Origin: Aureisphaera galaxeae
GTDB lineage: Bacteria; Bacteroidota; Bacteroidia; Flavobacteriales; Flavobacteriaceae
DNA length: 64,000 nucleotides
Direction: 5' to 3'
Assembly: GCF_028561275.1 (NCBI RefSeq)
Contig: NZ_JAQQTF010000004.1
Location: 434,001 to 498,000, forward strand
Both the position numbers and the translations under genes were made by a program. Below the pieces are notes generated by a model, which was not told where the DNA came from, made no database searches, and saw nothing but the letters and a program-made list of their open reading frames with translations. Positions 48,785-64,000 of the stretch are shown in pieces (within the stretch, counting starts at the first letter, position 1; each line of letters starts with the position of its first letter).

Positions 48785-48813
48785 CGACTTGTATTTGAAT
48801 TAAATGAATATTG

Positions 48814-50073
48814 ATGAGAGACTTATTCGATAAGATTTACAAAGACAAAGGCCCGTTGGGTAAATGGGCTGAACAAGCAGAAGGCTACTTCGTTTTCCCC
48901 AAATTGGAAGGCCCTATCGGCAATAGAATGAAATTTAGAGGAAAGGAAGTAATTACCTGGAGTGTAAATGATTATCTCGGTTTTGCTAACCACCCAGAAG
49001 TACGTAAGGTAGATGCGGAAGCAGGTGCCAAGTACGGTTCGGCCTATCCTATGGGAGCCCGAATGATGAGTGGACACACCGATCTTCATGAACAATTACA
49101 GAACGAATTGGCCGCCTTTGTACACAAAGAAGCTGCTTATTTGTTGAATTTCGGATACCAAGGAATGGTTTCTACCATCGATGCTTTGGTATCTAAGGAC
49201 GATGTGATCGTATACGACGTAGATGCCCACGCCTGTATCATAGACGGGGTGCGTTTGCATTTAGGACAGCGTTTTACGTATAAGCACAACGATATAGAAA
49301 GTATCGAAAAGAACCTGAGACGTGCCGAAAAGGTAGCCCAGAAGACCGGAGGGGGAATCCTTCTTATTTCTGAAGGGGTATTTGGAATGCGTGGAGAGCA
49401 GGGAAGATTGAAAGAAATCGTTGCCCTTAAGAAAAAATACAATTTCCGTCTGTTTGTAGACGATGCCCACGGTTTCGGAACCCTTGGTAAGACAGGGGCT
49501 GGAGCAGGAGAGGAGCAAGGCGTACAGGACGATATCGACGTGTACTTCGCTACGTTTGCAAAGTCTATGGCCAGTACCGGAGCCTTTATTGCCGGTGACG
49601 AGGAGATCATGAACTACCTAAAGTACAACCTACGTTCGCAGATGTTCGCCAAGTCATTGCAGATGCAGTTGGTAGAAGGTGCTTTAAAGCGACTGGACAT
49701 GATGCGTAGCAGCACTCAATACAAGGACAAGCTTTGGGAGAACGTAAATGCCCTACAGGGCGGATTGCGTGAGCGTGGTTTCGATTTGGGAACCACCCAG
49801 AGTTGTGTAACACCGGTATACTTAAAAGGAAGTATTCCAGAAGCGATGGCCTTGGTAAAGGACCTGCGTGAAAACTATGGAGTATTTACTTCTATCGTGG
49901 TATATCCGGTAATCCCTAAGGGATTGATCTTATTACGTATGATTCCGACGGCTTCTCACACTATGGAGGACATTAACCAGACTTTAGATGCCTTCTCTGG
50001 CATCCGCGAGCGATTGGAAAACGGAACCTACAAGCGTCTTTCTGCCCATGTCGCAGCCGCGATGGGAGAATAA
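48814..50073 (+). CDS. Alpha-oxoamine synthase, cysteate/serine acyltransferase-like
   Basis: A 419-residue PLP-dependent acyl-transfer enzyme of the 2-amino-3-ketobutyrate CoA ligase/serine palmitoyltransferase family. PLP Asp in LFVDDAHGFGTLG and Schiff-base Lys250 in TFAKSMASTGAF are present, with NYLGFANHPEV near the N-terminus. Flavobacteria use a member of this family to join cysteate with a fatty-acyl unit in capnine synthesis (CapB/SulA; the F. johnsoniae enzyme is known). Being next to a cysteate-synthase-like gene supports that reading, but serine palmitoyltransferase is an alternative. Start is the ATG 48814; an in-frame TTG precedes it by one codon. Confidence 0.85.
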   Translation: MRDLFDKIYKDKGPLGKWAEQAEGYFVFPKLEGPIGNRMKFRGKEVITWSVNDYLGFANHPEVRKVDAEAGAKYGSAYPMGARMMSGHTDLHEQLQNELAAFVHKEAAYLLNFGYQGMVSTIDALVSKDDVIVYDVDAHACIIDGVRLHLGQRFTYKHNDIESIEKNLRRAEKVAQKTGGGILLISEGVFGMRGEQGRLKEIVALKKKYNFRLFVDDAHGFGTLGKTGAGAGEEQGVQDDIDVYFATFAKSMASTGAFIAGDEEIMNYLKYNLRSQMFAKSLQMQLVEGALKRLDMMRSSTQYKDKLWENVNALQGGLRERGFDLGTTQSCVTPVYLKGSIPEAMALVKDLRENYGVFTSIVVYPVIPKGLILLRMIPTASHTMEDINQTLDAFSGIRERLENGTYKRLSAHVAAAMGE

Positions 50074-50096
50074 GCGTAACAACATATATGATATTG

Positions 50097-50124
50097 AAAA
50101 CCACCTCGAAAGGGGTGGTTTTTT
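50097..50124 (+). terminator. Intrinsic terminator; boundary of the accessory island
   Basis: CCACCTC (50101-50107) pairs with GGGGTGG (50112-50118, one G-U) around a GAAA loop, then T6. The island begins immediately downstream, and a degenerate copy of this hairpin region recurs near 51974-52000. Confidence 0.85.
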
Positions 50125-50401
50125 GTTATGGGGCTTTTGTTCAGGGATTTGATTATATTTGAGTTCTCCCCGGTTTTTCTAGAGCTATAGCATTTTAGCT
50201 AAAATATTTTGACAAATTCGTAATAACCTAAGGACAACAAGTATTGTCATAACCGTTACTCGTCATCCATTAATATTATGACGACTAGTCAAGGAATATT
50301 ATTAACTATTATTTTGAGCAATAACAGATTAGATCAAGTCGATCAGGATTAAAATGTAAATAACAATAATATTCCAAAATAACTTACGGATTAAAACTTA
50401 A
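50125..50401. promoter_or_regulatory. Palindrome-dense leader before the histidine kinase gene
   Basis: An A+T-rich intergenic stretch with several inverted repeats: the 14-base palindrome ATTTTAGCTAAAAT (50192-50205), GACAA/TTGTC (50233-50237, 50244-50248), CGTCAT/ATGACG (50261-50266, 50278-50283), the palindrome GACTAGTC (50283-50290), and a perfect 11-base pair GGAATATTATT (50293-50303) with AATAATATTCC (50365-50375). A TATATTTG box (50154-50161) lies in the direct repeat. It could be an operator region or a structured leader. No coding frame was seen. Confidence 0.45.
50146..50178 (+). repeat. Direct repeat copy 1, left of the kinase/receiver-nuclease pair
   Basis: A 33-base element beginning GATTTGATTATATTTGA and matching positions 52025-52057 at 29 of 33 bases, 1,879 bases apart. 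It contains TATATTTG, a -7 type promoter box. Upstream bases around the terminator are also loosely similar between the two places. Confidence 0.7.
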
Positions 50402-51103
50402 ATGGAATACAATTATCATATTATGAGACAAATGGATATGAATTTTATTCATGAATTAGGTCATCTTATCCACTATATAAATGTGGATCTATACCATATT
50501 CATGATAAATTGAAGTCTGTTGATGAAAATGAAGAATTGCTTTCGATTCTTAAATCAACAATTCACAATGCAGAAGAAATGAATAAGATGTTTCGAGTAT
50601 ATAGAGAAATGCTTATACCGCGAACGGACAAGAAAGAAATATTTTCGATAAATGAAATTGTAAATGATGTACTTGATGTTTTAAGAGCCAAGATTCAAAG
50701 GGAAAAAATCAGAATTAACTTTGAAAAATCAAATCCAAATTTGAAAGTATTTGGGAATCCAGGGAAGCTTCTTAATGTATTTTTGAATTTAATTCTTAAT
50801 TCTCTTGAGTCTGTACGAATAGCAAAAAATAAAATAAACGAGATTAATATTTCAGTATTGGATTTTAATAAAAGTATTAAAATAACTATAACTGATAATG
50901 GAATCGGCATCTCAAAAGAAAATATAGACAAGATTTTTGACATTACTTACTCTACAAAGCATACTCCAGGTTCTGGATTTGGCTTGGCCGTTGCGAAATT
51001 CGTTGTTGAAGATCATTTTTCAGGAAAAATTAATGTTTCTTCTGAAGTCAATAAATCAACAACAGTTACTATCATAATTCCTAAGTCTAATGAAAAAAAT
51101 TAA
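50402..51103 (+). CDS. Compact histidine kinase (no evident sensor or membrane domain)
   Basis: A 233-residue protein. H17 in FIHELGHLI is the likely phosphorylated His of a dimerisation helix pair (residues about 12-75). The ATPase part follows: N box NLILNSLESV (N133), G1 DNGIGIS (165-171), F box IFDITYSTK, and G2 GSGFGLAV (190-197). No transmembrane, HAMP, PAS or GAF region is present, so it is cytoplasmic and must sense through a partner or through its own short N-terminus. Its end overlaps the receiver-nuclease gene by 14 bases, so they are an obligate pair. Codon use is strongly A+T-biased. I infer a defence or stress function. Confidence 0.88.
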   Translation: MEYNYHIMRQMDMNFIHELGHLIHYINVDLYHIHDKLKSVDENEELLSILKSTIHNAEEMNKMFRVYREMLIPRTDKKEIFSINEIVNDVLDVLRAKIQREKIRINFEKSNPNLKVFGNPGKLLNVFLNLILNSLESVRIAKNKINEINISVLDFNKSIKITITDNGIGISKENIDKIFDITYSTKHTPGSGFGLAVAKFVVEDHFSGKINVSSEVNKSTTVTIIIPKSNEKN

Positions 51104-51908
51104 GGTAATTTGGGTTGATGACGATATAACATTATTGAATAAATCTGAATACTTATTTAATGAATACGGTTTCGACATTATAAAGTGTTCAACTATTTCC
51201 GAAGCGTTAAAGCAGGTTTTAAGCGGTTTTTCAGATAATATTTTGCTAGATGTAGATTTTCCAGGCAATCCAAAGGAAGGGATACTATTTTTGGAGCAGT
51301 TAGGAAAAATAAATCCAAACTTGAAAATCATTTTATTTACTGCGTATCCGGAAATGAATGATAAAGTCAGATTGCTTCGTGATAACCTTGCCTTAGATTA
51401 CTTAAGCAAACCACTTCCATTAAATGAATGTGAAGTTGTTGATTTTTTCCATAGACTAAGGAGGTCGTTCAATCATCATTCTAGCGAATTGAATCATTTC
51501 AAAAGAGATAAACTTGATATATTGAAATATTCTTTGGAAGAAAATGATATGGATAAGTTTATTAATACATTCCGTTCGATCTTTGCTGGATTATCATACA
51601 ATATTAAGGTTCAAGAAAGTTATTTTCATGGATACATTCAGATTATTTTGGATTTAATTGGGATGAAAATATATTCTGAACTGGAAACAAACAATGGGCG
51701 AATCGATGCGGTTATTGAAGTCCAAAAGTACATATACATTATGGAATTTAAGTTAAGAGATTCTAATGAGGCATTATCACAGATAAAGGAGAAGAAGTAT
51801 TATGAAAGATTTCTTTTGTCAACAAAGGAAATTGTGCTAGTCGGAGTTGCTTTTGATACAAAATCAAGAAATGTAAAAGATTATAAAATTGAAATCCTTG
51901 AGGAATAG
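51090..51908 (+). CDS. Response-regulator receiver fused to a PD-(D/E)XK nuclease domain
   Basis: A 272-residue fusion. Residues 4-125 are a complete receiver: D11/D12 acidic pair, phosphoacceptor D54 (ILLD54VDFPG), T84 (FTAYPE) and K107 (SK107P). Residues about 140-272 match the PDDEXK_9 (DUF1703-like) family: GRIDAVIEV (D206), IYIMEFKL with E219 and K221, AL-Q231-IK-KKYY, and a final strand region VLVGVAFDTKSRNV. PDDEXK_9 normally follows an AAA-ATPase-like domain in single proteins, so the receiver fusion is unusual. Presumed action: kinase-controlled DNA cleavage, with phosphorylation acting as the switch. Active-site residues look intact. Confidence 0.85.
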   Translation: MKKIKVIWVDDDITLLNKSEYLFNEYGFDIIKCSTISEALKQVLSGFSDNILLDVDFPGNPKEGILFLEQLGKINPNLKIILFTAYPEMNDKVRLLRDNLALDYLSKPLPLNECEVVDFFHRLRRSFNHHSSELNHFKRDKLDILKYSLEENDMDKFINTFRSIFAGLSYNIKVQESYFHGYIQIILDLIGMKIYSELETNNGRIDAVIEVQKYIYIMEFKLRDSNEALSQIKEKKYYERFLLSTKEIVLVGVAFDTKSRNVKDYKIEILEE

Positions 51909-52024
51909 TCATTATCTCTAAACTTCTCATAGCACTTTCTCAAGAGAACGTAGTTATAGAATAAATTGTTCAAAATCACCTGAAGGGAGCGGTTGTTTTG
52001 GGGATGAATAATCTATAAATACAA

Positions 52025-52057
52025 GATTTGATTATATTTGAATACTCCCCAATTTTT
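52025..52057 (+). repeat. Direct repeat copy 2, right of the kinase/receiver-nuclease pair
   Basis: The second copy of the 33-base element (29/33 identical), ~70 bases upstream of the AAA ATPase promoter region. Contains TATATTTG at 52033-52040. Together with copy 1 it brackets both genes of the pair. Confidence 0.7.
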
Positions 52058-52128
52058 TAAATTACAAGAAAGTATAACTTACAGTTTTATGCTTCAGTAT
52101 AATTAAGTTTTTGTGTACAATACCATTT

Positions 52129-53829
52129 ATGATAGAAATTTTTAAGAAACGACCTTTTAAGACTAGAAATGCGGATGAGTATAATTTAAGTGACGTACTT
52201 TCCCTTTTCGTCAACCCAATAAGTGGACTAAGTTCTCCTTTTGATTTTGAAAATTCTATTATAAAAGGAAGAATGGGATCGGGTAAAACAATGTATTTAA
52301 GAGCTAATTACGCTTTTTACCTTTTCAATTTAGTACCAAATATCTTAGAAAAACAAGAATTAATACTTCCAGTTTTTATAAAGCTTAGTGATTTTCAGCA
52401 CATTACGGAGCCTTCTAATATTTATAGGAGCCTGATAATCAAAATAATCGAGGAACTTTCATCAATTTATCTAACACTTCAAGATGCTAAGTCTATGGCT
52501 AACATTCATGAAGGCATGAAAAAAGTTAAGGATGATTTATACTTTGAGGAAAAAATAAGAGCAACTTCACAACAATTATTGGAACTTGGTTCGGAAGAGT
52601 ATATTAAGAAATTGAATATTGAGTTCGGTATTCAAAGTAAGTTATCTTATTCTTTCCTAGAAGCATCTGCGAATTTTACGAAAAACGAAGTTGTAGAGAT
52701 AAAATCAAAAAGAAATCCTGGGATAAATGATGTAACATTGGCTTTTGAAACCTTATTAAAAGATACTGGTGGGAAAATCTTACTATTAATTGATGAAGCG
52801 GGGTCATTAGACAAAAAATTCTTTCGTAAAGGAGAAGAAAGTACAGAATCCTTTTTTGAAGTCTTCATGAATCAATTACGAACCAGTGAATATATAAGAA
52901 CTAAAGTAGCGGTATATCCAAATTCATATTCTGATATACTAACCGAGACTAGATATGGTGATATTGTTGTTTTGGAGGAAAGTATTGAGTCATTGGAAAA
53001 ATACACTACTTATAGAACCAAAGTTGAGTCAATAATAAAAAATTACCTGAATATAGATTTTGAATCTGAACAGATTAAAATAGAAGAGGTATTCGAATGT
53101 AAAGATATATCCAATGGTGATACAATTGAAGAATTGATTAATGGATCTGGAGGAAATTATCGGAGACTTATACAATTGTTGGACTCCGCAATGAATGAGT
53201 CCTATAAGCGAAATAAGGGTTTGAATAAAGTTGAGTATTTGGATGCAGTCACCGCTTTAAAGAAACATTGCGAAGATATTTTAAACAGTTATTCCACACT
53301 TGATAAGGAGTATTTGTTCAACCTCGGCAAGGTGTGTAAAAATAGAAGCACTTATAGATTTAAATTTCCTTACAACGCACAGTTATTGTACAAATACATG
53401 AATAGGTCACAGGAATTTAATTTAGTGAAAGTTGTTGATGCAGGGTCAGGTAGAAAGGGAACAACTTATGAATTTGATTATTCATATTGTGTTTATAATG
53501 ATATCCCAACTCATTATATTAGTGGTACTGAAAAAATAAATAAAAAAAGAACTTTGAAAGAGGGTAGTTGGATTTCTCGAATTACAAATATCAATCAAGA
53601 AATCTTAGCTCAAAGCCAGATTCCCAATAAACTTGAAGGAGAAATTTTCGACGTTGTTATTAAGGGTAAAGGCTACATAAAAGGAGAAGATTCTGTCGAT
53701 TATTTCTTCACGTCTGAATTCATAATTGAAAGTGACGTTAGCAAGAAAATCTATCCAGGGAGAAAAGTTCGTTTCGTCCCGACAATGCTAATTGATACTA
53801 AATTTGCTACTGAAATAGAGATTTTGTAA
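52129..53829 (+). CDS. AAA ATPase (ORC/CDC6-like) with C-terminal cold-shock-like domain
   Basis: A 566-residue protein from ATG 52129-52131 (a TTG six codons earlier was not used). Walker A GRMGSGKT is at residues 47-54 and Walker B LLLIDEAG has D222 and E223. The middle shows the family's helical region and a probable winged-helix part (about 390-450). Residues about 504-566 look like a cold-shock/OB fold: GYIKGEDSVDYFFTSEFIIE, then GRKVRFVPTM, and a final A-x-E-I-x-L. Annotated relatives are called ORC-CDC6 family ATPases. Nucleic-acid binding by the tail is inferred. It probably belongs functionally with the kinase/nuclease pair or acts as a separate defence gene. Confidence 0.8.
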   Translation: MIEIFKKRPFKTRNADEYNLSDVLSLFVNPISGLSSPFDFENSIIKGRMGSGKTMYLRANYAFYLFNLVPNILEKQELILPVFIKLSDFQHITEPSNIYRSLIIKIIEELSSIYLTLQDAKSMANIHEGMKKVKDDLYFEEKIRATSQQLLELGSEEYIKKLNIEFGIQSKLSYSFLEASANFTKNEVVEIKSKRNPGINDVTLAFETLLKDTGGKILLLIDEAGSLDKKFFRKGEESTESFFEVFMNQLRTSEYIRTKVAVYPNSYSDILTETRYGDIVVLEESIESLEKYTTYRTKVESIIKNYLNIDFESEQIKIEEVFECKDISNGDTIEELINGSGGNYRRLIQLLDSAMNESYKRNKGLNKVEYLDAVTALKKHCEDILNSYSTLDKEYLFNLGKVCKNRSTYRFKFPYNAQLLYKYMNRSQEFNLVKVVDAGSGRKGTTYEFDYSYCVYNDIPTHYISGTEKINKKRTLKEGSWISRITNINQEILAQSQIPNKLEGEIFDVVIKGKGYIKGEDSVDYFFTSEFIIESDVSKKIYPGRKVRFVPTMLIDTKFATEIEIL

Positions 53830-53947
53830 TTATTCGCTATAAATAATGCCTTTAAAATCTAGTTAAAAAATAACATCTGATTTTTTTTTTTTTGAAATTT
53901 AAATAATAAGAGTTTTTAACCTTAAGAATTGTCTGCACATTAAATCA
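53830..53947. other. Intergenic stretch with a T13 tract
   Basis: A short A+T-rich gap between the convergent ATPase and XRE genes with an uninterrupted run of 13 T at 53881-53893. No hairpin is associated, so it is not a clear terminator; slippage could vary its length but it is outside any reading frame. Confidence 0.5.
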
Positions 53948-54202
53948 TTACAGGTAATTATGGGGAATCTCCAAAAGTTCCCGAACCGAAACCCCGAATC
54001 CATCCGCAATTTTCATAAGGGTCAATAAACGAGGATTGGTTTTCCCGTTTTCTATCATATATAGTTGAGTTCTTCCAATACCACAATCGAAGGCAAAGGA
54101 TTTTTGGTCAATGCCTTTTTCTTCACGTAGGTGTTTAATTCGAGCACCCAATTTTTTAAAATATTTCGCTTCTTTCGTGTTCACTATACCGAATTTCTGC
54201 AA
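53948..54202 (-). CDS. XRE family helix-turn-helix regulator
   Basis: An 84-residue DNA-binding protein. The helix-turn-helix (about residues 19-76, IKHLREEKGIDQKSFAFDCG, then IGRTQLYMIENGKTNPRLLT) is of the Cro/C1 type. It is divergent from the SymE-like gene, with only 41 bases between the two start codons, and a palindrome in that gap is the probable operator. This resembles the controller-like regulators placed beside restriction or toxin genes; its targets are inferred. Confidence 0.92.
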   Translation of the reverse strand: MQKFGIVNTKEAKYFKKLGARIKHLREEKGIDQKSFAFDCGIGRTQLYMIENGKTNPRLLTLMKIADGFGVSVRELLEIPHNYL

Positions 54203-54217
54203 ATTATTTATACCTTG

Positions 54218-54235
54218 TGTTCGGAATAACGAACA
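54218..54235. promoter_or_regulatory. Palindromic operator between XRE and SymE genes
   Basis: TGTTCG and CGAACA (54218-54223, 54230-54235) form a perfect six-base dyad around GAATAA. The dyad sits in the 41-base divergent promoter region, so binding by the XRE protein would control both genes. Confidence 0.65.
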
Positions 54236-54243
54236 TTTAATTA

Positions 54244-54429
54244 ATGAACCAACACCGCAAACTAAAAGTCTACCAGAAATTCCGTAGGAGGGAGTGGGAC
54301 AACCTAGTGGTTCCCGAGATCCGGTTGGAGGGCATTTGGCTGCAGGAACTCGGTTTTGAGATTGGCATGGAAATACAAGTGGAGCAGGGGAAGGAACGGT
54401 TGGTGATAACTGTTTTCCGCAAGGAATAA
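54244..54429 (+). CDS. SymE family toxin-like protein
   Basis: A 61-residue protein matching the SymE/AbrB-like toxin family: RKLKVYQK near the N-terminus, then PEIRLEGIWLQELGFEIGME and VEQGKERLVITV. In E. coli, SymE is an RNA-targeting or nucleoid-binding toxin repressed by an antisense RNA; an antisense partner was not searched for. Homologues in Bacteroidota commonly lie by restriction-modification genes. It is divergent from the XRE regulator and followed after 40 bases by the PD-(D/E)XK-DUF2971 gene. Confidence 0.82.
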   Translation: MNQHRKLKVYQKFRRREWDNLVVPEIRLEGIWLQELGFEIGMEIQVEQGKERLVITVFRKE

Positions 54430-54436
54430 TAGATGT

Positions 54437-54458
54437 GGTTTGGTTATCTTAGTGCAAA
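54437..54458 (+). promoter_or_regulatory. Promoter-like TATCTTAG element
   Basis: GGTTTGGTTATCTTAGTGCA lies 13 bases before the nuclease/DUF2971 start codon. The same core (TTTGG-TATCTTAGT-CAA) recurs at 55901-55923, and TATCTTAG recurs in repeats near 60855 and 62168, each upstream of a gene. A variant -7 box is likely. Confidence 0.35.
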
Positions 54459-54469
54459 TTGTAGGTTAA

Positions 54470-55852
54470 ATGAGCACCAAAGAATCGGAAATAGAGAACA
54501 TCATACTTACTAGACTTCAAGAGAGTCTTATAGATGTTGGGCTTAAAGTTGTAAGTCAGGATAAATGGAAAACATCGAGATTGACAAGATGGTTTGATAT
54601 AGTTATCTATAAAGGTAAAAATCCCCATGTAGTCTTTGAAATAAAAAGTTCTTTAGCTAGTAAAAACACTCTTGCCAGAGCTACTGACCAAGTAAGGTCT
54701 TCTCTTTCAATCACAAATGCCCGATTCGGTATTGTAACGGATAATTCTTTGTTTTTCATTTATGATAGGAATGAAAAAGAAAATGATTTTATTGAATCAG
54801 ACTTTGATGGAATAATAGAAAGAATAACTAAAGTTAAAAATGTAAGAATAAGTCAAAGAACAAAGTGGCAAATCTTATCAATAATAAAAGAATCTGCAGG
54901 AATTCATTTATCTCAAAATTTGGAAATTTCCAAATTTCTTCAGGAAGAAAAAATCATAAATAAAATCAAATTTGACTCAAACAGGAACTCTTTTTATTTT
55001 GATGACAGGTTGCAGAATATAAAGTCTTTTGAGAATCAATTTTTCAATAAAATCTTTGGAGACTTTTTAGAAACAAAGATTTGCAGATATACGACTCTAG
55101 ATACTTTGTTTAGCATGCTCAACTTCATTTCTTTTCGAATGAACGGATTGGTAGGTATGAATGACAAATCTGAAGTTAATTATGTTGATAATTATCTCAA
55201 TGGAGTTGAACGCCCCCTTTCTAAAATGCACCACAACACAGTAATCGCACTTAATAAGAGATATATTACATCCTGTTCTCGAATATCAAGAAAAGATGAG
55301 TTAACATTGTGGAGGTTGTACGGTGATGATGGAACCGGTGTGTGCCTGATTTTTGATATTAAAAAGGAAAATCTCAATGATAAAGTACTTATTCAAAGGG
55401 TAAAGTATGCCGATCACAATGGTAATCATCCTGAGCTTGACTTTTTGAAACACATAAGAGAAGGCGTGGAAATTCTTACTGGATTTACCTTCGAATTTAG
55501 AAATATTGGATTGTGGAAACATTTTTTTAAGCCTTATGATTATGCCATAGAGGAAGAAGTAAGGCTGTTGGTCATAGAAGATCCAAGTCTTAATCCATTA
55601 AATTCGAATTGGGTAAAAACGTATTCCCATTCGATTATAAATCCATTTATTGATTTTCAATTAAACAACAGCGCTTTCCCAATTCAATTGTCAGAAGTTA
55701 TTCTAGGTCCCAAGTCACCAGAGCAAGATTCAAATATTGTTCAATTACAGGAAATGGTTAGAAGAAAAAGAAGACATATAACAGCCAAAAAATTGGATTC
55801 AAATTTGAAAAGATTGAAAATAAAAATATCCAAGATCAATCATTATAGATAG
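54470..55852 (+). CDS. PD-(D/E)XK domain fused to DUF2971
   Basis: A 460-residue two-domain protein. Residues about 5-120 look like the type I restriction HsdR N-terminal fold: WFDIVIYKGKNPHVVFEIKS, with D43, E57 and K59 plus Q74 as the catalytic set, and the following strand RFGIVTDNSLFFIYD. Residues about 205-440 are DUF2971: CRYTTLDTLFSML, GLVGMNDKSEV, the Trp-containing ELTLWRLYGDDGTGVCLIFD, and KPYDYAIEEEVRLL. DUF2971 proteins are linked to phage defence in several neighbourhoods, though their biochemistry is unclear. A nuclease with a second, possibly sensing, domain is my reading. Strong A+T bias indicates acquisition by transfer. Confidence 0.83.
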   Translation: MSTKESEIENIILTRLQESLIDVGLKVVSQDKWKTSRLTRWFDIVIYKGKNPHVVFEIKSSLASKNTLARATDQVRSSLSITNARFGIVTDNSLFFIYDRNEKENDFIESDFDGIIERITKVKNVRISQRTKWQILSIIKESAGIHLSQNLEISKFLQEEKIINKIKFDSNRNSFYFDDRLQNIKSFENQFFNKIFGDFLETKICRYTTLDTLFSMLNFISFRMNGLVGMNDKSEVNYVDNYLNGVERPLSKMHHNTVIALNKRYITSCSRISRKDELTLWRLYGDDGTGVCLIFDIKKENLNDKVLIQRVKYADHNGNHPELDFLKHIREGVEILTGFTFEFRNIGLWKHFFKPYDYAIEEEVRLLVIEDPSLNPLNSNWVKTYSHSIINPFIDFQLNNSAFPIQLSEVILGPKSPEQDSNIVQLQEMVRRKRRHITAKKLDSNLKRLKIKISKINHYR

Positions 55853-55988
55853 TAGTCAGTGGCTCCCCCGCTGGCTCCCTTCTCAGACAGATACTTCCCC
55901 AAGTTTGGCTATCTTAGTACAAACAACTACGCGTACCTGTCTGCCTCTGGCAGAACCGCGACCGTTATGAGCCATTTAAAATCATAGT
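55853..55988. other. G+C-rich intergenic stretch with a small hairpin
   Basis: Unlike the surrounding A+T-rich sequence, this 136-base gap contains a C-rich run (about 55861-55880) and the inverted repeat TCTGCC/GGCAGA (55940-55945, 55949-55954). It also carries the TATCTTAG promoter-like element (55901-55923). It may be the right edge of the island or a dispersed repeat relative. Confidence 0.45.
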
Positions 55989-56753
55989 ATGAGGTTCTTT
56001 AATCAAGTAAGACGTAAGCTGATTTTGGACAATAAAAAAATTCAGTATCTAAAGTATGCTTTAGGAGAAATCATACTGGTAGTCATCGGGATTTTAATTG
56101 CACTTCAGATAAATAATTGGAATCAGTCCATAAAAGACAAAGAATCCTTGAATGAATATTTGATAAAGATTAAATCCCATACAAAGGAAGATATAGAACA
56201 GTTAGAAGCATTATCGGAAGGAAGAAAACAAATTGCCGACATCTGTAAAAAAGCACGAAATAGTATCTTAGATAAGACCGAAAATGACAATCTTTTTTTA
56301 TTCAAGATAAGTGGTTCTGCTTTTGTCGATTTCTATTTCAAACCGAATTCAGGAGGGTATGAATCATTGAAAAATTCTGAATATTATGGTAAAATAAACA
56401 ATACCAAACTCGATTCACTTTTGGCCAAATATCACGGTTTAGTGGATATTATCGCAGAAAATGAGAGGAGTTATAATCAATATACAGTGCACCAAGAGAA
56501 TTTTCTCGACACTCAATTCGATAGATCCCTTATTTTGGCTTCTGCATTTATGCCATTAGATTCCTTAGCAACAAAAGCCACATCTCAGTCCGAATATGAC
56601 CAAGCATTCCTTGAATATACAGCCAAACCAGCATATAGAAATGTTATTAGTTTGGCAGCATGGCAATTTGATACGATGATCGAACAGTACAAGCAATTAA
56701 CGGAACTGGGGGATCTAATTATAGCAGAAATAGATGCCATAGCCACAGACTAA
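55989..56753 (+). CDS. DUF6090 family membrane protein
   Basis: A 254-residue protein with the flavobacterial DUF6090 N-terminus (KYALGEIILVVIGILIALQI, a single membrane helix at about residues 28-46 after a basic amphipathic start) and a long periplasmic helical domain. Function unknown. It is followed within nine bases by the serine hydrolase gene, so the two may be co-transcribed. Confidence 0.88.
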   Translation: MRFFNQVRRKLILDNKKIQYLKYALGEIILVVIGILIALQINNWNQSIKDKESLNEYLIKIKSHTKEDIEQLEALSEGRKQIADICKKARNSILDKTENDNLFLFKISGSAFVDFYFKPNSGGYESLKNSEYYGKINNTKLDSLLAKYHGLVDIIAENERSYNQYTVHQENFLDTQFDRSLILASAFMPLDSLATKATSQSEYDQAFLEYTAKPAYRNVISLAAWQFDTMIEQYKQLTELGDLIIAEIDAIATD

Positions 56754-56761
56754 AAGAGAAA

Positions 56762-57790
56762 ATGATAAAAAATAAAAAAGCCAAGTGGATTTTACGCATT
56801 TTGTTGTTCGTTGGAACAGCAATATCCCTGTTTTTTGTGCCATGGATTTTGGTAAAGGCTTGGATTTTACCGCTACCCGATACAGTTCAAGAACAAGTGG
56901 ATGAGGCCATTGGACATGGATTTGACGGCATGATTGTTTATGTGGACGAAGCAGGAAAACCACCCGCATTTTATACAGGTGGTTGGAAAGATAGAGAGAA
57001 CAAAATACCGGCCGACCCAAATTCACTATTCAAAATTGCGAGTATTAGCAAGTTATATACGGCCGTTGCTATCACTAAAATGGTCAAAGAAAAGCGTTTG
57101 TCTTTAGATGAAACGCTTGCGGATTATTTCCCAGAACTTGTAGGTAGAATTGAAAATGCAGAGAAGATTACCTTGAAGATGATGGTGCAACATCGGTCCG
57201 GAATTCCCAATTTTACAGATAATCCCGCTTTTTGGGAAAATGAGCAGGAAAACAGTAAAGATGCCCTTGATTTTGCCCTCGATTTACCGGCTAGTTTTAA
57301 ACCCGACAAAGGTTATGAATATTCAAACACGAATTATTTATTGCTTCGCAGGATTATGGATGATGTACTAGGATATAACCACCATGAGTACATCAAAGAG
57401 AAAATATTGATACCCCTAGAGCTTAAAAATACTTTTTTTTCAATTACTGAAGTCAATTTAGATGATGTTATGAGTGGATATTATGTGGGTTATGATGAAG
57501 ACTTTAAAGCTAATGAATATGGAATGTTAGCCACAGCACAAGATGTGGGCATATTCTTAAGGGCCTTGAACGATGGTTCGGTATTTGAAGAAGGCGAACA
57601 GGAAATCTATCCCTACGAATACAATCATGGAGGTTTGGTCATTGGCTATCAAAGTCTTTCAGAATATCACAGGGATATTGATGCGGTAGTGGTTCAATTT
57701 ATTAACACAACAGATTTTAATGGCTATGAATGGAATTTATCGGAAATTACAATTAACCGAATTGTAAAAATCATTAAAAAGAAAAACTAG
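56762..57790 (+). CDS. Serine hydrolase (beta-lactamase/class C type)
   Basis: A 342-residue protein with an N-terminal hydrophobic anchor or signal (about residues 10-32). The beta-lactamase-like active site is S94-I-S-K97 in FKIASISKLY, with Y-x-N in YEYSNTNYLLL. The family covers penicillin-binding-like D,D-peptidases and esterases; beta-lactamase activity is not implied. It acts in the periplasm. A PD40 lipoprotein gene follows after 38 bases. Confidence 0.88.
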   Translation: MIKNKKAKWILRILLFVGTAISLFFVPWILVKAWILPLPDTVQEQVDEAIGHGFDGMIVYVDEAGKPPAFYTGGWKDRENKIPADPNSLFKIASISKLYTAVAITKMVKEKRLSLDETLADYFPELVGRIENAEKITLKMMVQHRSGIPNFTDNPAFWENEQENSKDALDFALDLPASFKPDKGYEYSNTNYLLLRRIMDDVLGYNHHEYIKEKILIPLELKNTFFSITEVNLDDVMSGYYVGYDEDFKANEYGMLATAQDVGIFLRALNDGSVFEEGEQEIYPYEYNHGGLVIGYQSLSEYHRDIDAVVVQFINTTDFNGYEWNLSEITINRIVKIIKKKN

Positions 57791-57827
57791 CCACAATGTC
57801 GTTATCAAACCTTTTGAAACGTAGACA

Positions 57828-58751
57828 ATGAAAAATAGCATCTCGATTTTTACAGTACTAGCATTTGCAGTCTTCTTACAGGCATGTAACACCAATAAAA
57901 AGGAGGTAAAGGGTGGTGAGTCAGCCACGATAGAAGGTTCCTATTTTGGACAAAAACCACCCGGTTTAACTCCAGAGGTTTTTGCTCCTGGTGTCGTTTC
58001 AATTGATGGAAGGTTTGAAGGCACCGTTTCATTTTCTCCCGAGTTGACAGAAATTTACTTCGCAGCTAACAATGAAGAAGATGAAACAGTTATCTATTTC
58101 TCAAAACTCGAAGGTGATACATGGACCGCCATAAAAAAAGTGAATTTTACGAATGGGAAAAAGAAGGAAGAAATGCATCCCTTTGTGAGCCCCGATGGTA
58201 AAAGGATTTATTTCACAGCTATGGACTCTGCTTTTGTGGATGAGAAAATTTGGTATGTGGACCGTTTAGCAGATTCTTGGAGTGATGCTGTTCAGCTTGA
58301 TTCACCTGTAAATGATGACCTGGTATTTTTTCCTAATCAGTCTAAAAACGGGGACCTTTATTATTTCAATTTGTCAAAATTCAAAACCTATTATGCACCC
58401 AATAAAAATGGTGCGTTTCCCGAAGTACAGGAAGTTCCGTTGGAATTTGGCCATCATGCTTTCATTTCCCCAGCTCAAGATTACATAATACTAACCGCAC
58501 GGAACAATGAAGAGGAGGGAAGAGATGATAATGATATGTATGTTTATTTTAAAGCGGAAGACGGAATATGGTCCAACCCCATTAATCTGGGGAATACCGT
58601 AAACACGAATCGTAATGAAAAAGGTCCAAGAATCACTCCAGATGGTACGTATTTGTTTTTTGGTAGGGATGAAAGGGATATAGAACCCGGGCTGGCAGAT
58701 ATCTATTGGGTAAGCACAGAAGTTATAGAAAAACTAAGACCCAACCCATAA
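57828..58751 (+). CDS. PD40 repeat lipoprotein
   Basis: A 307-residue lipoprotein (hydrophobic residues 5-18, lipobox LQAC). The rest is a TolB-like beta propeller of PD40 repeats: GTVSFSPELTEIYFAAN, PFVSPDGKRIYFT, PRITPDGTYLFFGRD, and so on. The C-terminus DIYWVSTEVIEKLRP is nearly the same as in the downstream ankyrin-PD40 protein, showing that the two are paralogues from a duplication. Role unknown; propellers of this type often mediate binding at the envelope. Confidence 0.87.
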   Translation: MKNSISIFTVLAFAVFLQACNTNKKEVKGGESATIEGSYFGQKPPGLTPEVFAPGVVSIDGRFEGTVSFSPELTEIYFAANNEEDETVIYFSKLEGDTWTAIKKVNFTNGKKKEEMHPFVSPDGKRIYFTAMDSAFVDEKIWYVDRLADSWSDAVQLDSPVNDDLVFFPNQSKNGDLYYFNLSKFKTYYAPNKNGAFPEVQEVPLEFGHHAFISPAQDYIILTARNNEEEGRDDNDMYVYFKAEDGIWSNPINLGNTVNTNRNEKGPRITPDGTYLFFGRDERDIEPGLADIYWVSTEVIEKLRPNP

Positions 58752-58780
58752 ACTACACCGTAACCTGCAATAAGACGAAA

Positions 58781-60166
58781 ATGAGAATAGTATTACTAAT
58801 TACATTCTATTTTGCACTTCACCACAATGTGTATGCCCAAAATATACACCGAACTGCTTGCAATGGTAATTTAGTGAGGTTAGATAGTATGCTCACGAAT
58901 ACTACAATTAACGTAAAGGATAATCGTGGTAGGTCTCTATTGCATTGGGCTGTTGCCTGCAAGAAAAAGGAGGTTTTTGATTATCTAATTGAAAAGGATA
59001 TAAATATTAATGGAACAGATAATCAAGAAAAAACACCATTGCACGTTGCAGTTCAATTCAACAATTTGGAGTATTTCGATTATTTAATACAATTACAATC
59101 CTCCAGTGATTGGCGGTCTAATTATGGCGCATCACTTCTTGAACTAGCGGTATTGAACAGAAACAAAACACTTACGGAAAAATTGATCGCTAGCGGAATC
59201 GACTTAAACATCAAAAATGAAAGAGGTAGTACGGCATTGGAAATTTCGGAAAGAATAAATGCCGATGCTATGTATGAGTTGCTGCTTTCTCAAGGAGCGG
59301 ATGTAAACCTAGTACGTAAATTCGAAATGAAGGGAGAATATATGGGGCAGGAAGTACCTGAAACAACGCCTAAGATGTTTGCCCCAAATTTCATTTCAAC
59401 GGAAGAACAAGAATTCGGTTCGGTCTTCAATACAGAGGGAACAGAATTTTATTTTGGCGTAGATGTTGGCGGCAGAAATGAAATTCGCTTCTCCAAAATG
59501 GTAGCAAATCAATGGACCAAACCAGTAACTATTATTACCCATGAACGATATAGCTATAACGACCCATTCCTTTCCAATGATGAGAATAGATTGTATTTTA
59601 TTTCCAAAAGAGCTTTAGATGGAAAGGGTAAAATAAAAGATGTTGATATATGGTATGTTGAGAGAACGAATAATGGATGGTCAGAACCCATTAATGCAGG
59701 ATTAAATATTAATACAGAAGGGAATGAATATTATATTTCATTTACCAAAGATGGCACCATGTATTTTTCGTCTAATGGACATGCCGAAGAACAGAAGGAG
59801 GAGCCGGATTATGACATATATTATTCTAAACTAATAGATGGCAAATTTCAAAAGCCCGTTGTCCTGGGTGATTCAATTAACACAGAGGATTATGAAGCGG
59901 ACGTTTTTATTTCACCAGACGAATCCTATATGATTTTCTGTTCTACTCGTGACAATGGTTTTGGGAGAGGCGATTTATATATAAGCTTTAAGAATGCTAA
60001 CAATACATGGAGCCGAGCTGTTAATATGGGGGAAGAAATAAATACTGAACATTATGAGTATTGCCCTTTTGTTACTAAAGATGGGAAATACCTTTTTTAT
60101 ACGAGTAATCAAGATATTTATTGGGTGAGTACAGCGATTATAGAAAAGCTCAGGCCCGAACAATAA
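58781..60166 (+). CDS. Exported protein with ankyrin repeats and PD40 propeller
   Basis: A 461-residue protein from ATG 58781 (the longer frame starts in the upstream gene). A signal peptide (1-20) precedes four to five ankyrin repeats (about 25-180: RSLLHWAVACKKKEVFDYLI, then KTPLHVAVQFNNLEYFDYLI). The remaining ~280 residues are a PD40 propeller homologous to the previous gene, starting at GEYMGQEVPETTPKMFAPNF (paralogue: GSYFGQKPPGLTPEVFAPG) and ending DIYWVSTAIIEKLRP. The ankyrin segment is an added module. It is likely periplasmic; partner binding is inferred. Confidence 0.88.
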   Translation: MRIVLLITFYFALHHNVYAQNIHRTACNGNLVRLDSMLTNTTINVKDNRGRSLLHWAVACKKKEVFDYLIEKDININGTDNQEKTPLHVAVQFNNLEYFDYLIQLQSSSDWRSNYGASLLELAVLNRNKTLTEKLIASGIDLNIKNERGSTALEISERINADAMYELLLSQGADVNLVRKFEMKGEYMGQEVPETTPKMFAPNFISTEEQEFGSVFNTEGTEFYFGVDVGGRNEIRFSKMVANQWTKPVTIITHERYSYNDPFLSNDENRLYFISKRALDGKGKIKDVDIWYVERTNNGWSEPINAGLNINTEGNEYYISFTKDGTMYFSSNGHAEEQKEEPDYDIYYSKLIDGKFQKPVVLGDSINTEDYEADVFISPDESYMIFCSTRDNGFGRGDLYISFKNANNTWSRAVNMGEEINTEHYEYCPFVTKDGKYLFYTSNQDIYWVSTAIIEKLRPEQ

Positions 60167-60193
60167 ACTACAAATATGATAGCTAATCTATAA

Positions 60194-60595
60194 ATGAAAA
60201 AAGTACTATTCTTAATTTTTGTCCTTCAATCAGCTTATGGTTTTACCCAAAATAGTTCATGCGAGAACTTTAAAAATGGTGTTTTTAGAGCCGTAGATGG
60301 GGAAATAGATGATGAAACTTATAGGATTATCAGAAATGATAGTGTTCAAATTGAAAGAGATGAAAAGTATGGAATAGAAATCATACAATCCATTGAATGG
60401 ATTACCGAATGTTCTTTTAGATTAAAGTTCCTTTCTGCTAATAAAGTGTACCAAGAAAAATATAGTACGCCAAACGATACCATACCTTTAATCATAGAAA
60501 TAAAAATAGCCGGGGCAAACTTTTATTCGTACGAAGCCAGATATGAAGGTAAATCAAAAGTTATGCACGCTGGGAACATTTTAAAGTTAGAATAA
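60194..60595 (+). CDS. Small exported protein of unknown function
   Basis: A 133-residue protein with a signal peptide (1-18, ending GFTQ) and a short beta-rich mature domain (SCENFKNGVFRAVDGEIDDE, YRIIRNDSVQIE). It follows the ankyrin-PD40 gene by 28 bases and may belong to the same transcript. No family recognised. Confidence 0.78.
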   Translation: MKKVLFLIFVLQSAYGFTQNSSCENFKNGVFRAVDGEIDDETYRIIRNDSVQIERDEKYGIEIIQSIEWITECSFRLKFLSANKVYQEKYSTPNDTIPLIIEIKIAGANFYSYEARYEGKSKVMHAGNILKLE

Positions 60596-60922
60596 AACCA
60601 AGTTACATAGACCTTTACTATAGCCTATCTCAGAAGGGTGCTTCCGTTTTTAATAGTGATGAGTGAGAAGTTAGAATAAGCTGGACTCTGAGTGCTTAAA
60701 ACGGAGTTTTAAGTGTATCGAAGAGTCGTTTACAGAAGTTAGGAGTGAGAGCTGATTGGTGCAAGTCTGCGGGTTCATTATTATCTACCTGTCCAACAAT
60801 TCAACAATCCAATCACCCGACAATCAATTGAACTGAAAAGCAAAAGGGTTTTGTTATCTTAGTAATAGAAGCTGTGCCATTTCTCCACGCTTGCACTCAT
60901 TATTTAAGTAATTATTCCAACT
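60596..60922. repeat. Intergenic region with dispersed repeat and promoter-like end
   Basis: No coding frame seen. It contains a segment (about 60650-60675) similar to 62056-62080, an AAC/AAT-rich stretch, and a 42-base piece at 60821-60862 matching 62134-62175 at 41 of 42 bases. The piece ends in TTTTGTTATCTTAG, a promoter-like element also found before other genes here. Confidence 0.7.
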
Positions 60923-61603
60923 ATGTTTAAATGGTTTAAAAAGAAAAAAGAAAAGCGAGATTCCGAGATTCTCAAAACCGATACGAAGGAGCCATCTTCC
61001 ATTTGGTATGAAGTAGGGGATAAGGACAATCCATTTAATAAAAAAGTTCTGGATGTTAGTGACTACACAAGAAATACAATGGCGTTTACCAAATCAAAAG
61101 CCATCGCCTTAAAGTTTAATGAGTTGAGAAATTCAATAGGAAAGGAACTTATTGATTTTGATACTTCAGAATTTGATCAGGTTTCAACAAACCTTGAATA
61201 TCCGCACAATGGAAAACAACTTGAAGGAATTGCATTTAAAGCGGACTCCATGGATTGTAAATGGGATATTTATGCCTACAATGATTACCTTTTCTTTTCT
61301 CGAAGTTGGGATGGAATATTGATCTACAAAGCAAAATTCTCCATTTCGGAAAACAGTCTGGTCATATCCGAAATAAGGTTCGATAATATGTTTACTGGAA
61401 CCGAGGCAGAAAATGATGTGCATTTCCTGATCAATTCTCATGCAATGAATCAAGCCTTTCCTCATATGATTCCTAAAGAACTTACATCGGAATCGGAGAT
61501 TGAACAATGGTCATTCGTTAAATTTGGAAATCGGGCTTATTATGCGACTTACGATAGCGTAGTGGATGCTCGATATACAGCCCAATGGCTTTCAGAAAAC
61601 TAA
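60923..61603 (+). CDS. Cytoplasmic protein of unknown function
   Basis: A 226-residue protein beginning with a Lys-rich stretch (MFKWFKKKKEKRDSE). No signal peptide or membrane helix follows. The rest is mixed strand and helix with no known motif, e.g. VSTNLEYPHNGKQLEGIAFK and WSFVKFGNRAYYATYDS. It is preceded by the dispersed repeat with its TATCTTAG box. Function unknown. Confidence 0.75.
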   Translation: MFKWFKKKKEKRDSEILKTDTKEPSSIWYEVGDKDNPFNKKVLDVSDYTRNTMAFTKSKAIALKFNELRNSIGKELIDFDTSEFDQVSTNLEYPHNGKQLEGIAFKADSMDCKWDIYAYNDYLFFSRSWDGILIYKAKFSISENSLVISEIRFDNMFTGTEAENDVHFLINSHAMNQAFPHMIPKELTSESEIEQWSFVKFGNRAYYATYDSVVDARYTAQWLSEN

Positions 61604-61700
61604 GGGTCAACCCTCACAAGCGCAAGATTCTGTTTAGTGCTTCTGTAAGAGTATGAATTTTTCTTATTAATTACATTTAGTAAAGCAAACGCTATTCGAT

Positions 61701-62003
61701 ATGAATACTAGAGAAATTGAAACCTTAGAACATTTTCTTACCAAAACTTCCATGTGGATACATCCAGTAAACGAAACCTCAATCGTTTCTTTTATTCATG
61801 GATTTGAGGCGGGCATTGGGAGTAAAACTTTCACTTCAGGACTAAAGGAGTATTTGGAATCCAGGTATGATCTTTATGGTTCAAATCAAGGTTGGCCTCG
61901 ACAGATACTTCTTTACGCCGAGAAAAAGAATATGGAATGGAAAGATGCGTTTATTGAGATTGGGAAAATAGTGCTGCAAGATATCATTGAGGAGCTCTGT
62001 TAG
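61701..62003 (+). CDS. Small cytoplasmic protein of unknown function
   Basis: A 100-residue protein, mostly helical (SIVSFIHGFEAGIGSKTFTS, then a helical KNMEWKDAFIEIGKIVLQDI). No signal peptide or recognised motif. It stands alone, 97 bases after the previous gene. Confidence 0.72.
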   Translation: MNTREIETLEHFLTKTSMWIHPVNETSIVSFIHGFEAGIGSKTFTSGLKEYLESRYDLYGSNQGWPRQILLYAEKKNMEWKDAFIEIGKIVLQDIIEELC

Positions 62004-62133
62004 CGTCTACCACCTACCGGCCCAACTATAGATATACTTCCCTAAAGTTTGGTTTTTAATCGTGATGAGTGACGGGTGAAGGGCGATGGGTGATAAGTGT
62101 ACTTGTTGTCCATCCAACCATCCAACAATCCAA

Positions 62134-62175
62134 CAATCAATTGAAGTGAAAAGCAAAAGGGTTTTGTTATCTTAG
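62134..62175 (+). repeat. Dispersed intergenic repeat upstream of the peptidase gene
   Basis: A 42-base segment matching 60821-60862 except at one base, ending TTTTGTTATCTTAG. The gene start lies 41 bases downstream, so the repeat probably supplies the promoter. Confidence 0.7.
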
Positions 62176-62215
62176 GGCTTCCATAGAATTAGAAATAACA
62201 AAGACCAAACATATC

Positions 62216-64000
62216 ATGAGACTCATCAAATTTACGCTACTCGCATCCCTACTCATTACTCCGCTACTTTCAGTAAATGCGCAAGCAGAAAAAGCGGTTC
62301 CTGTTTTCGAAAATGGGGAAGCTCAAATTGTATCTGCATTCGAAGATTCAGAAGAATGGATTAGACATGATCTATGGGTGGAAACGGAGTTCGATACCGA
62401 TGGTGATGGAAAAATGGATAGGATGCACGTCTCGGTCACTAGACCACAGCAAACAGAGACAGAAGGACTTAAATTACCCGTTGTATATGTTACTAGCCCT
62501 TATTTTGCAGGAGTAGCGGGAAATGTAAAGGGTTTATTTTGGGATGTAAGGCATGAACTTGGAGCGGAAGCAAAAGAACAACGCGTACATCCAGAGGTCG
62601 TCCGAAGAGGAGAGCGACCCATCATTTCAAATTCCCATATAAAAACATGGGTGCCAAGAGGGTACATCGTAGTGCACTCCTCATCTCCCGGAACCGGACT
62701 TTCGCAAGGTGCACCTACGGTAGGAGGCGACAACGAATCATTGGCTCCCAAAGCGGTAATCGATTGGTTATGTGGGCGTATACCGGGATATACGACTCCC
62801 GATGGTAATGAAAAAGTTGAGGCATTTTGGTCAACCGGGAAAATTGGAATGACGGGGACATCCTATAATGGAACCCTTCCTTTGGCGGCAGCCACCACAG
62901 GTGTTGATGGACTGGAAGCCATCATCCCCATCGCTCCTAATACGTCGTATTATCATTATTATCGATCCAACGGATTGGTGCGATCTCCTGGTGGATATTT
63001 AGGAGAAGATATTGACGTACTGTACGACTTTATTCATAGTGGCGATGAGTCGAAACGTGCTTACAATAATAAAACCGTAAGGGATACCGAAATGAAAAAT
63101 GGGATGGATAGAATTACAGGAGACTATAACGACTTCTGGGAGGGACGTGACTACTTAAATGAGATGGGCCCCATGAAAGCGGCTTTACTTATGGCACATG
63201 GGTTCAATGATTGGAATGTAATGCCAGAGCACAGTTATAGAATTTATGAAGCTGCTAGGGCCAAAGGGATACCTTCTCAAATATATTATCACCAACAAGG
63301 ACATGGAGGCCCACCGCCTATGAAGATGATGAACCGATGGTTTACGCGCTATTTACATGGTATAGAAAATGGGGTGGAAAAGGATGCACGCGCATGGATT
63401 GTGCGTGAAAATGATAACATGAAAAATCCGACTCCGTATAAGGACTATCCCAACCCAGAAGCGAAAGATGTAACGCTGTACCTAAGCTCGGGCGCTCCTG
63501 ATACCGGAGGTTTAGGCACTGAAAAAGGGAAAAGTCAGGGAACAGAAAAAGTGGTTGACGATTTTTCTTATTCCGGTGGCGAATTGGCACAAGCTGAAAC
63601 TAGTAATCATAGATTATTATATGTAACACCTACATTAACAGAAGATGTTCATATATCGGGCACACCCAAAGTCTCTATTAAATTAGCGAGCAGCAAGGCG
63701 GCTGCAAACCTTTCAGTTTGGTTGGTTTCGCTACCTTGGAATGATGGAAGTAAAGTCAAAATAACGGACAATATCATAACCCGCGGCTGGGCCGATCCAC
63801 AAAATCACAAGTCCATACGAAAAGGGAAACCCTTAAAGAAGGGGAAATTCTATCAGGTAACGTTCGATTTAATGCCAGATGATCAGGTTATTAAAAAAGG
63901 GCAACAAATTGGGCTTATGATTTTTTCGAGCGACAAAGAATTTACGTTGCATCCCGATCCCGGAACCGAATTAACCATCGATTTAGATGCAACAACATTG
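62216..64000 (+). CDS. X-Pro dipeptidyl-peptidase/CocE-family hydrolase (partial at window end)
   Basis: The frame is open for 595 codons from ATG 62216 with no stop before the window ends. A signal peptide (1-24, ending NAQA) precedes an alpha/beta hydrolase of the CocE/NonD and X-prolyl dipeptidyl-peptidase type (S15-like). Catalytic Ser216 is in GTSYNG; the Asp is expected in HGFNDWNV and His in QQGHGGPP. A C-terminal beta-sandwich (X-Pro dipeptidyl-peptidase C) runs to the end. The C-terminal pattern suggests only a few residues are missing. The enzyme is exported and would release X-Pro dipeptides or cleave esters; the substrate is not known. Confidence 0.88.
   Translation, partial: MRLIKFTLLASLLITPLLSVNAQAEKAVPVFENGEAQIVSAFEDSEEWIRHDLWVETEFDTDGDGKMDRMHVSVTRPQQTETEGLKLPVVYVTSPYFAGVAGNVKGLFWDVRHELGAEAKEQRVHPEVVRRGERPIISNSHIKTWVPRGYIVVHSSSPGTGLSQGAPTVGGDNESLAPKAVIDWLCGRIPGYTTPDGNEKVEAFWSTGKIGMTGTSYNGTLPLAAATTGVDGLEAIIPIAPNTSYYHYYRSNGLVRSPGGYLGEDIDVLYDFIHSGDESKRAYNNKTVRDTEMKNGMDRITGDYNDFWEGRDYLNEMGPMKAALLMAHGFNDWNVMPEHSYRIYEAARAKGIPSQIYYHQQGHGGPPPMKMMNRWFTRYLHGIENGVEKDARAWIVRENDNMKNPTPYKDYPNPEAKDVTLYLSSGAPDTGGLGTEKGKSQGTEKVVDDFSYSGGELAQAETSNHRLLYVTPTLTEDVHISGTPKVSIKLASSKAAANLSVWLVSLPWNDGSKVKITDNIITRGWADPQNHKSIRKGKPLKKGKFYQVTFDLMPDDQVIKKGQQIGLMIFSSDKEFTLHPDPGTELTIDLDATTL

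Follow-up and report, generated by a model that had tools for sequence, protein, structure and literature searches.

A minimal histidine kinase and a receiver-PDDEXK_9 fusion as a candidate phosphorylation-controlled nuclease in Aureisphaera galaxeae

In the stretch of Aureisphaera galaxeae DNA analysed here (64,000 nucleotides, hereafter the window), a short histidine kinase is encoded next to a protein in which a receiver domain is joined directly to a PDDEXK_9 nuclease domain. The two open reading frames and their overlap of 14 bases, which is consistent with translational coupling, were borne out at the positions given in a preliminary description of this DNA. The features of the locus are listed below.

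50148..50162, + strand: promoter-like motif TTTGATTATATTTGA upstream of the pair, with a putative function.
50402..51103, + strand: gene for a minimal histidine kinase of 233 aa (ORF list, Pfam and motifs), with H17 as the likely phospho-acceptor.
50450-50452, + strand: codon of H17, read from the HELGH motif.
51090..51103, + strand: overlap of the two genes, 14 bases (ORF coordinates).
51090..51908, + strand: gene for the receiver-nuclease fusion, 272 aa (ORF and Pfam).
51105..51428, + strand: receiver domain, residues 6-113 (Response_reg, 5.2e-14); the D54 codon lies at 51249-51251.
51612..51881, + strand: PDDEXK_9 nuclease domain, residues 175-264 (Pfam), with D206, E219, K221 and Q231.
52129..53829, + strand: putative P-loop ATPase of 566 aa, a possible partner (P-loop motif seen by eye).
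53948-54202, - strand: small HTH gene, an array neighbour.
54470..55852, + strand: HsdR_N_2 / DUF2971 protein (Pfam; PADLOC PDC-S31 match at 3e-9), a weak defence-type context.

The Pfam scan of the 233-residue kinase identified an ATP-binding domain (HATPase_c, 1.8e-19, residues 119-229) and gave no match to HisKA. All of the H, N, G1, F and G2 motifs previously ascribed to the protein could be located: HELGH at residues 17-21, NLILN from residue 129, DNGIG from residue 165, an F box from residue 178 and GSGFGLA at residues 190-196. The kinase matches many NCBIfam kinase models, and since each of the 25 listed among the 80 matches falls far under its family cut-off, we regard it as a generic kinase core; its predicted structure is poor (pLDDT 39). 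The earlier claim that a sensor is missing agrees with the reading frames, as a TAA stands in frame directly 5' of the ATG and the 328-base gap upstream contains stops in all three frames, leaving no hidden sensor there. Taken together with a peak 19-residue hydropathy of 1.3, these stops suggest that the kinase is probably soluble and devoid of a sensor region. Within HELGH, H17 and E18 are followed by L-G-H, which puts H21 at the last place of the motif. HisKA kinases usually have a Thr or an Asn at that place for phosphatase action, and because a His stands there the kinase may be a poor phosphatase.

The receiver had been described as complete, and this holds for D54, T84 and K107. The acid pair had been given as D11/D12; the acids in fact form the run D10-D11-D12, so that the pair is ambiguous by one position, and from the positions in CheY-type receivers we take D10/D11 to be the more likely choice. 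The set of two-component motifs is thus complete across kinase and receiver. The nuclease domain scores 61.5 bits against a cut-off of 25.5 for PDDEXK_9 (PF08011; E 8.7e-17), with D206, E219 and K221 in the places proposed for them, and the Pfam matches of both receiver and nuclease lie far beyond chance level. No DNA-binding output domain was detected in the Pfam scan of this protein, nor was an AAA domain, residues 6-113 being the receiver. With no DNA-binding domain present and a nuclease fused directly to the receiver, the likely output is control of an enzyme, not of transcription, as the preliminary description had also suggested. A receiver query found no second receiver among the window ORFs of at least 60 aa or the 84 ORFs of the array region described below, in keeping with the proposed absence of a separate buffer receiver.

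Structural comparison added less detail. The receiver half of the predicted receiver-nuclease model is weak, and we therefore claim no interface between the domains. The Foldseek list for this protein was dominated by receivers, with PorX first at a whole-model TMq of ~0.29; the structural matches of the nuclease are re-examined Foldseek candidates from outside Foldseek's own listing. The NCBIfam PorX match over residues 5-165 is far under threshold (40 against a 300-bit cut-off). Judged from sequence, the pair is very probably a working phosphorylation-controlled nuclease.

In the order of events that we propose, an intracellular cue would lead the sensorless kinase to autophosphorylate on H17, and the phosphate would pass to D54 of the receiver, which would then shift its dimer state and either free or pair the PDDEXK_9 nuclease. 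A partner protein could relay the cue to the kinase, the adjoining putative ATPase being one candidate. Since there is no phosphate sink and the phosphatase motif is possibly weak, such an activating kinase would be leaky, and if phosphate switches the nuclease on, this leakiness would be a danger in the absence of a separate receiver to drain phosphate. These features would also suit the opposite logic, in which the kinase would be constitutively active as an antitoxin or guard and the phosphate on D54 would silence the nuclease. Loss of the kinase, of ATP or of expression, for example in a phage takeover, would then let the aspartyl phosphate decay and set the nuclease free, and the signal being monitored would be the capacity of the cell to keep phosphorylating. 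A kinase without a sensor fits such silencing, as do the lack of a buffering receiver, the H21 by which the kinase may only add phosphate, and the gene order, in which the kinase gene precedes the nuclease gene and runs into it, an arrangement seen in many antitoxin-toxin pairs. However, it is the more common view that receivers keep their outputs inhibited before phosphorylation, for which reason we hold activation by phosphate to be the more likely; silencing by phosphate, for which we know of no citable precedent, appears distinctly unlikely.

We then compared the nuclease with its relatives. The nuclease query matched 151 ORFs, spread over 138 loci, and 117 of these ORFs were also matched by the query for the AAA-type N-terminal part. 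The 34 without an AAA-type match comprise five readings of the window's own gene, two readings of one gene in genome G121 (L082/L136), the ORFs at loci L037, L146 and L150, and 24 others, all except one of them no longer than 238 residues. No Pfam domain lies N-terminal of the nuclease in L037, L082 and L150, and the L146 protein (16-1887) carries Roc, COR-A and COR-B followed by PDDEXK_9. The catalytic residues, whose loss in homologues had been named as a point to check, are retained: each of the 89 other rows in the alignment, several of which come from one genome, has the same residue at D206, E219, K221 and Q231. The genome-contig search requires a short exact peptide match, with patterns at residues 212-219 and 231-238, so the conservation of E219 and of Q231-Y238 is partly selection; E197, D206 and K221 fall outside the patterns.

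The nearest relatives of the window nuclease share 48% identity with it and have a different N-terminus. Tree building from 134 nuclease rows, with few columns available and many forks left without resolution, groups it with L037 and L082 (support 100/85). The other N-terminus of these nearest relatives favours domain exchange, and in view of the AAA-type, Roc-COR and further N-termini found across the family, the PDDEXK_9 nuclease behaves, in sequence comparisons, as an exchangeable, detachable effector. By eye, the L037 gene (7449-8405) has one NACHT-like and one Fic-like neighbour, and the L136 gene (8043-8999, the same gene as in L082) adjoins a gene with a PADLOC Aga_REase match at 1e-17; at 1e-3, PADLOC matched none of L146, L150, L037 (nuclease) and L004. 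No other PDDEXK_9 was detected at 1e-3 in the window's genome, and likewise none in 14 control genomes.

The receiver-nuclease query was run against draws of 397 genomes from the family and 395 each from the order, the phylum and the class, with cut-offs of 1e-15, 1e-12, 1e-12 and 1e-17, respectively. Matching genomes, the window's own included, numbered 2, 4, 28 and 13 in these draws, which overlap, contain the window's genome and had few candidates scored per genome. From the genome-contig search the best 80 of 129 relatives (78 loci) were taken; a further 47 plasmid records (20 listed) and 12 phage records matched, and viral contigs contained no relative of the kinase or of the receiver-nuclease protein. 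Among the retrieved loci, only the window's own gene was matched by the receiver query as well as by the nuclease query. Nine further phylum-draw matches extending into the receiver range were then retrieved, and all nine are of the AAA type, none with a receiver; other matches without a retrieved locus were judged by the covered range. The one plasmid record covering at least 80% of the protein (H1, L083) was likewise ruled out as AAA-type.

The kinase query matched 2 of the 397 family genomes at 1e-22, namely the window's own and one with an ordinary membrane kinase (33%). It also matched 1220 plasmid records, of which five neighbourhoods were inspected. The L120 kinase proved to be an ordinary large sensor kinase, the L119 kinase was an ordinary membrane kinase, and the partners of the L120 and L121 kinases were receiver domains only. 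Thus, neither a receiver-nuclease fusion outside the window's genome nor a second pair of kinase and receiver-nuclease was found in the genome, plasmid, phage and viral-contig searches. As only one copy of the pair was found, we claim no conserved association, and the case for the pair rests on its anatomy, without support from recurrence. The single copy would also suit a chance fusion or a decaying pair devoid of function; yet both frames are open, the key positions of receiver, kinase and nuclease are intact, and the nuclease has retained its active site while diverging to 48% identity with its closest relatives. We consider this explanation very unlikely.

The genomic setting of the pair differs from that in related genomes. 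In two congeners (G156 and G337) and in G121, the neighbouring gene upstream (48811-50073) is followed by a convergent gene, which in the window's genome (C14:557857-558981) is displaced by ~74 kb by an intervening array that spans window positions 50074-64000 and continues to G000:C14:557856. After overlap removal, this array comprises 81 ORFs of at least 110 aa, 78 of them on the + strand, and the kinase/nuclease pair is the first unit of this co-oriented accessory array; both congeners lack the pair at this site. The GC content is 29-31% over 50.0-54.0 kb as against 40-47% upstream, and 38-42% across most of the remaining array. For the putative 566-aa ATPase, no Pfam family exceeded its cut-off, PHROG gave no match at 0.01, and plasmids contained no relative at 1e-5. 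Much of the array consists, by eye, of seemingly general accessory genes, which sets it apart from a pure defence island. An integron origin was also considered: the best integron-integrase match (85 against a 265-bit cut-off) falls short, the same model gives sub-cut-off matches in all 14 control genomes, and an all-against-all comparison of 45 intergenic stretches found no attC-like shared element beyond the promoter-like motif. Rfam gave no match anywhere in the window. Further along, two adjacent array units (G000:C14:502980-503527 and 503561-504108) form a tandem duplication with 85% identity over 548 bases.

Two 33-base repeats lie at 50146-50178 and 52025-52057. They were considered as borders of a mobile cassette, and this was rejected when a third copy of the core was found to precede another array gene (C14:533285). 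Motifs related to the core precede further array genes, and together with the third copy they make the repeats more likely promoter-like. Many array genes have the shared motif TTTGRYTATMTTWGW upstream of them, at window positions 50148, 52027, 54439, 55904, 60849 and 62162 and further along. Allowing up to two mismatches, there are 16 intergenic + strand matches in a 77-kb stretch, and window positions 1-49000 contain none on the + strand and three on the - strand. Of the eight exact copies in the genome, six fall within the array; when one mismatch is allowed, the genome-wide count of 28 equals that of a reversed-pattern control (28).

The HsdR_N/DUF2971 neighbour, the low GC content and the NACHT-like/Fic-like and Aga_REase settings of the relatives speak for a role in defence. 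PADLOC, with 2023 models covering systems described by then, gave no match for the kinase and, for the nuclease, weak matches to Cas4_II at 0.0015 and PDC-S41 at 0.033. Altogether, the pair looks like a compact, horizontally acquired, possibly defensive on/off nuclease, and we regard a defence role as fairly probable. Alternatively, the two genes could form a two-component pair of a regulatory or housekeeping kind, with a nuclease that serves DNA repair, uptake or genome plasticity, given that the defence context is weak, that most array genes are general accessory ones and that nearly all PDDEXK_9 relatives have no known role. Housekeeping genes would, however, be expected to be more conserved, whereas the pair is absent at this site in two congeners, its fusion was unmatched in the other genomes searched and its GC content is low; such a role seems unlikely.

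Under the defensive reading, the activated nuclease would cut DNA (or RNA) and thereby stop the invader or the infected cell. The case is built from the domains with their motifs, the overlapping genes, the missing sensor, the conserved active site, the varied N-termini of relatives and the absence of the pair in congeners. The full chain, a two-gene phosphorelay gating a nuclease as an anti-phage or anti-element effector, is put forward tentatively, its probability being somewhat below even. If true, two-component control in probable immunity would reach beyond the destruction of ATP to the direct cutting of nucleic acids, with a very short parts list, and the widespread PDDEXK_9 would be an exchangeable effector placed under AAA ATPase, Roc-COR GTPase or receiver switches. 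The available parts of two accounts of the family (PMC1913061, PMC6387759) give no tested function for PDDEXK_9.

The architecture is unusual, and its general logic is known. Detocs combines a TPR-bearing kinase (DtcA), a buffer receiver (DtcB) and a receiver-effector with an ATP-cleaving PNP (DtcC). The pair described here resembles it in its likely mode of action and in having a histidine kinase and, as in the layout of DtcC, a receiver fused to an effector enzyme with no DNA-binding domain. It differs in that the TPR region is absent by Pfam scan from a kinase of 233 aa with H17 near the N-terminus, that no counterpart of DtcB was found among the ORFs of the window and the array, and that the effector is a nuclease and not an ATP-cleaving PNP. 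With two Detocs features absent, the TPR region and the separate receiver, descent from Detocs is without support here. Among the Detocs variants that defence-annotation tools recognise, some have a different effector, including a restriction-type nuclease, and this lowers the novelty of the pair. Detocs is presented as a three-gene system in the accessible text of PMC11728103 and PMC11249213, whereas the pair has two genes.

Titles and abstract starts of the open-licence literature yielded no description of a receiver-PDDEXK_9 protein. The domains of predicted defence systems include HATPase, REC and TPR, with no such nuclease fusion in the portion of that source available (PMC13092281). HEF_HK / Response_reg_2 pairs occur near restriction systems (PMC8011034, in part), and Schlafen proteins with a minimal kinase occur near BREX (PMC12839542, in part). 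Both resemble the present case as kinase-like modules tied to DNA-defence loci, but their kinases and receivers are of different families, and the Pfam scan here gave no match to PF19191 or PF19192. Response regulators of the PorX type, which the accessible part of PMC12839542 names, have an enzyme as output and share a receiver that governs a phosphodiesterase-type enzyme; the output of PorX is PglZ, whereas that of the window protein is PD-(D/E)XK. Finally, the DUF1703 family joins an AAA-ATPase_like domain to PDDEXK_9 (available parts of PMC1913061 and PMC6387759), and the biological role of its proteins is called unclear in the latter. The window protein has the same nuclease domain, motif residues and short helical stretch preceding it; here, however, a receiver replaces the AAA ATPase and a kinase gene adjoins.
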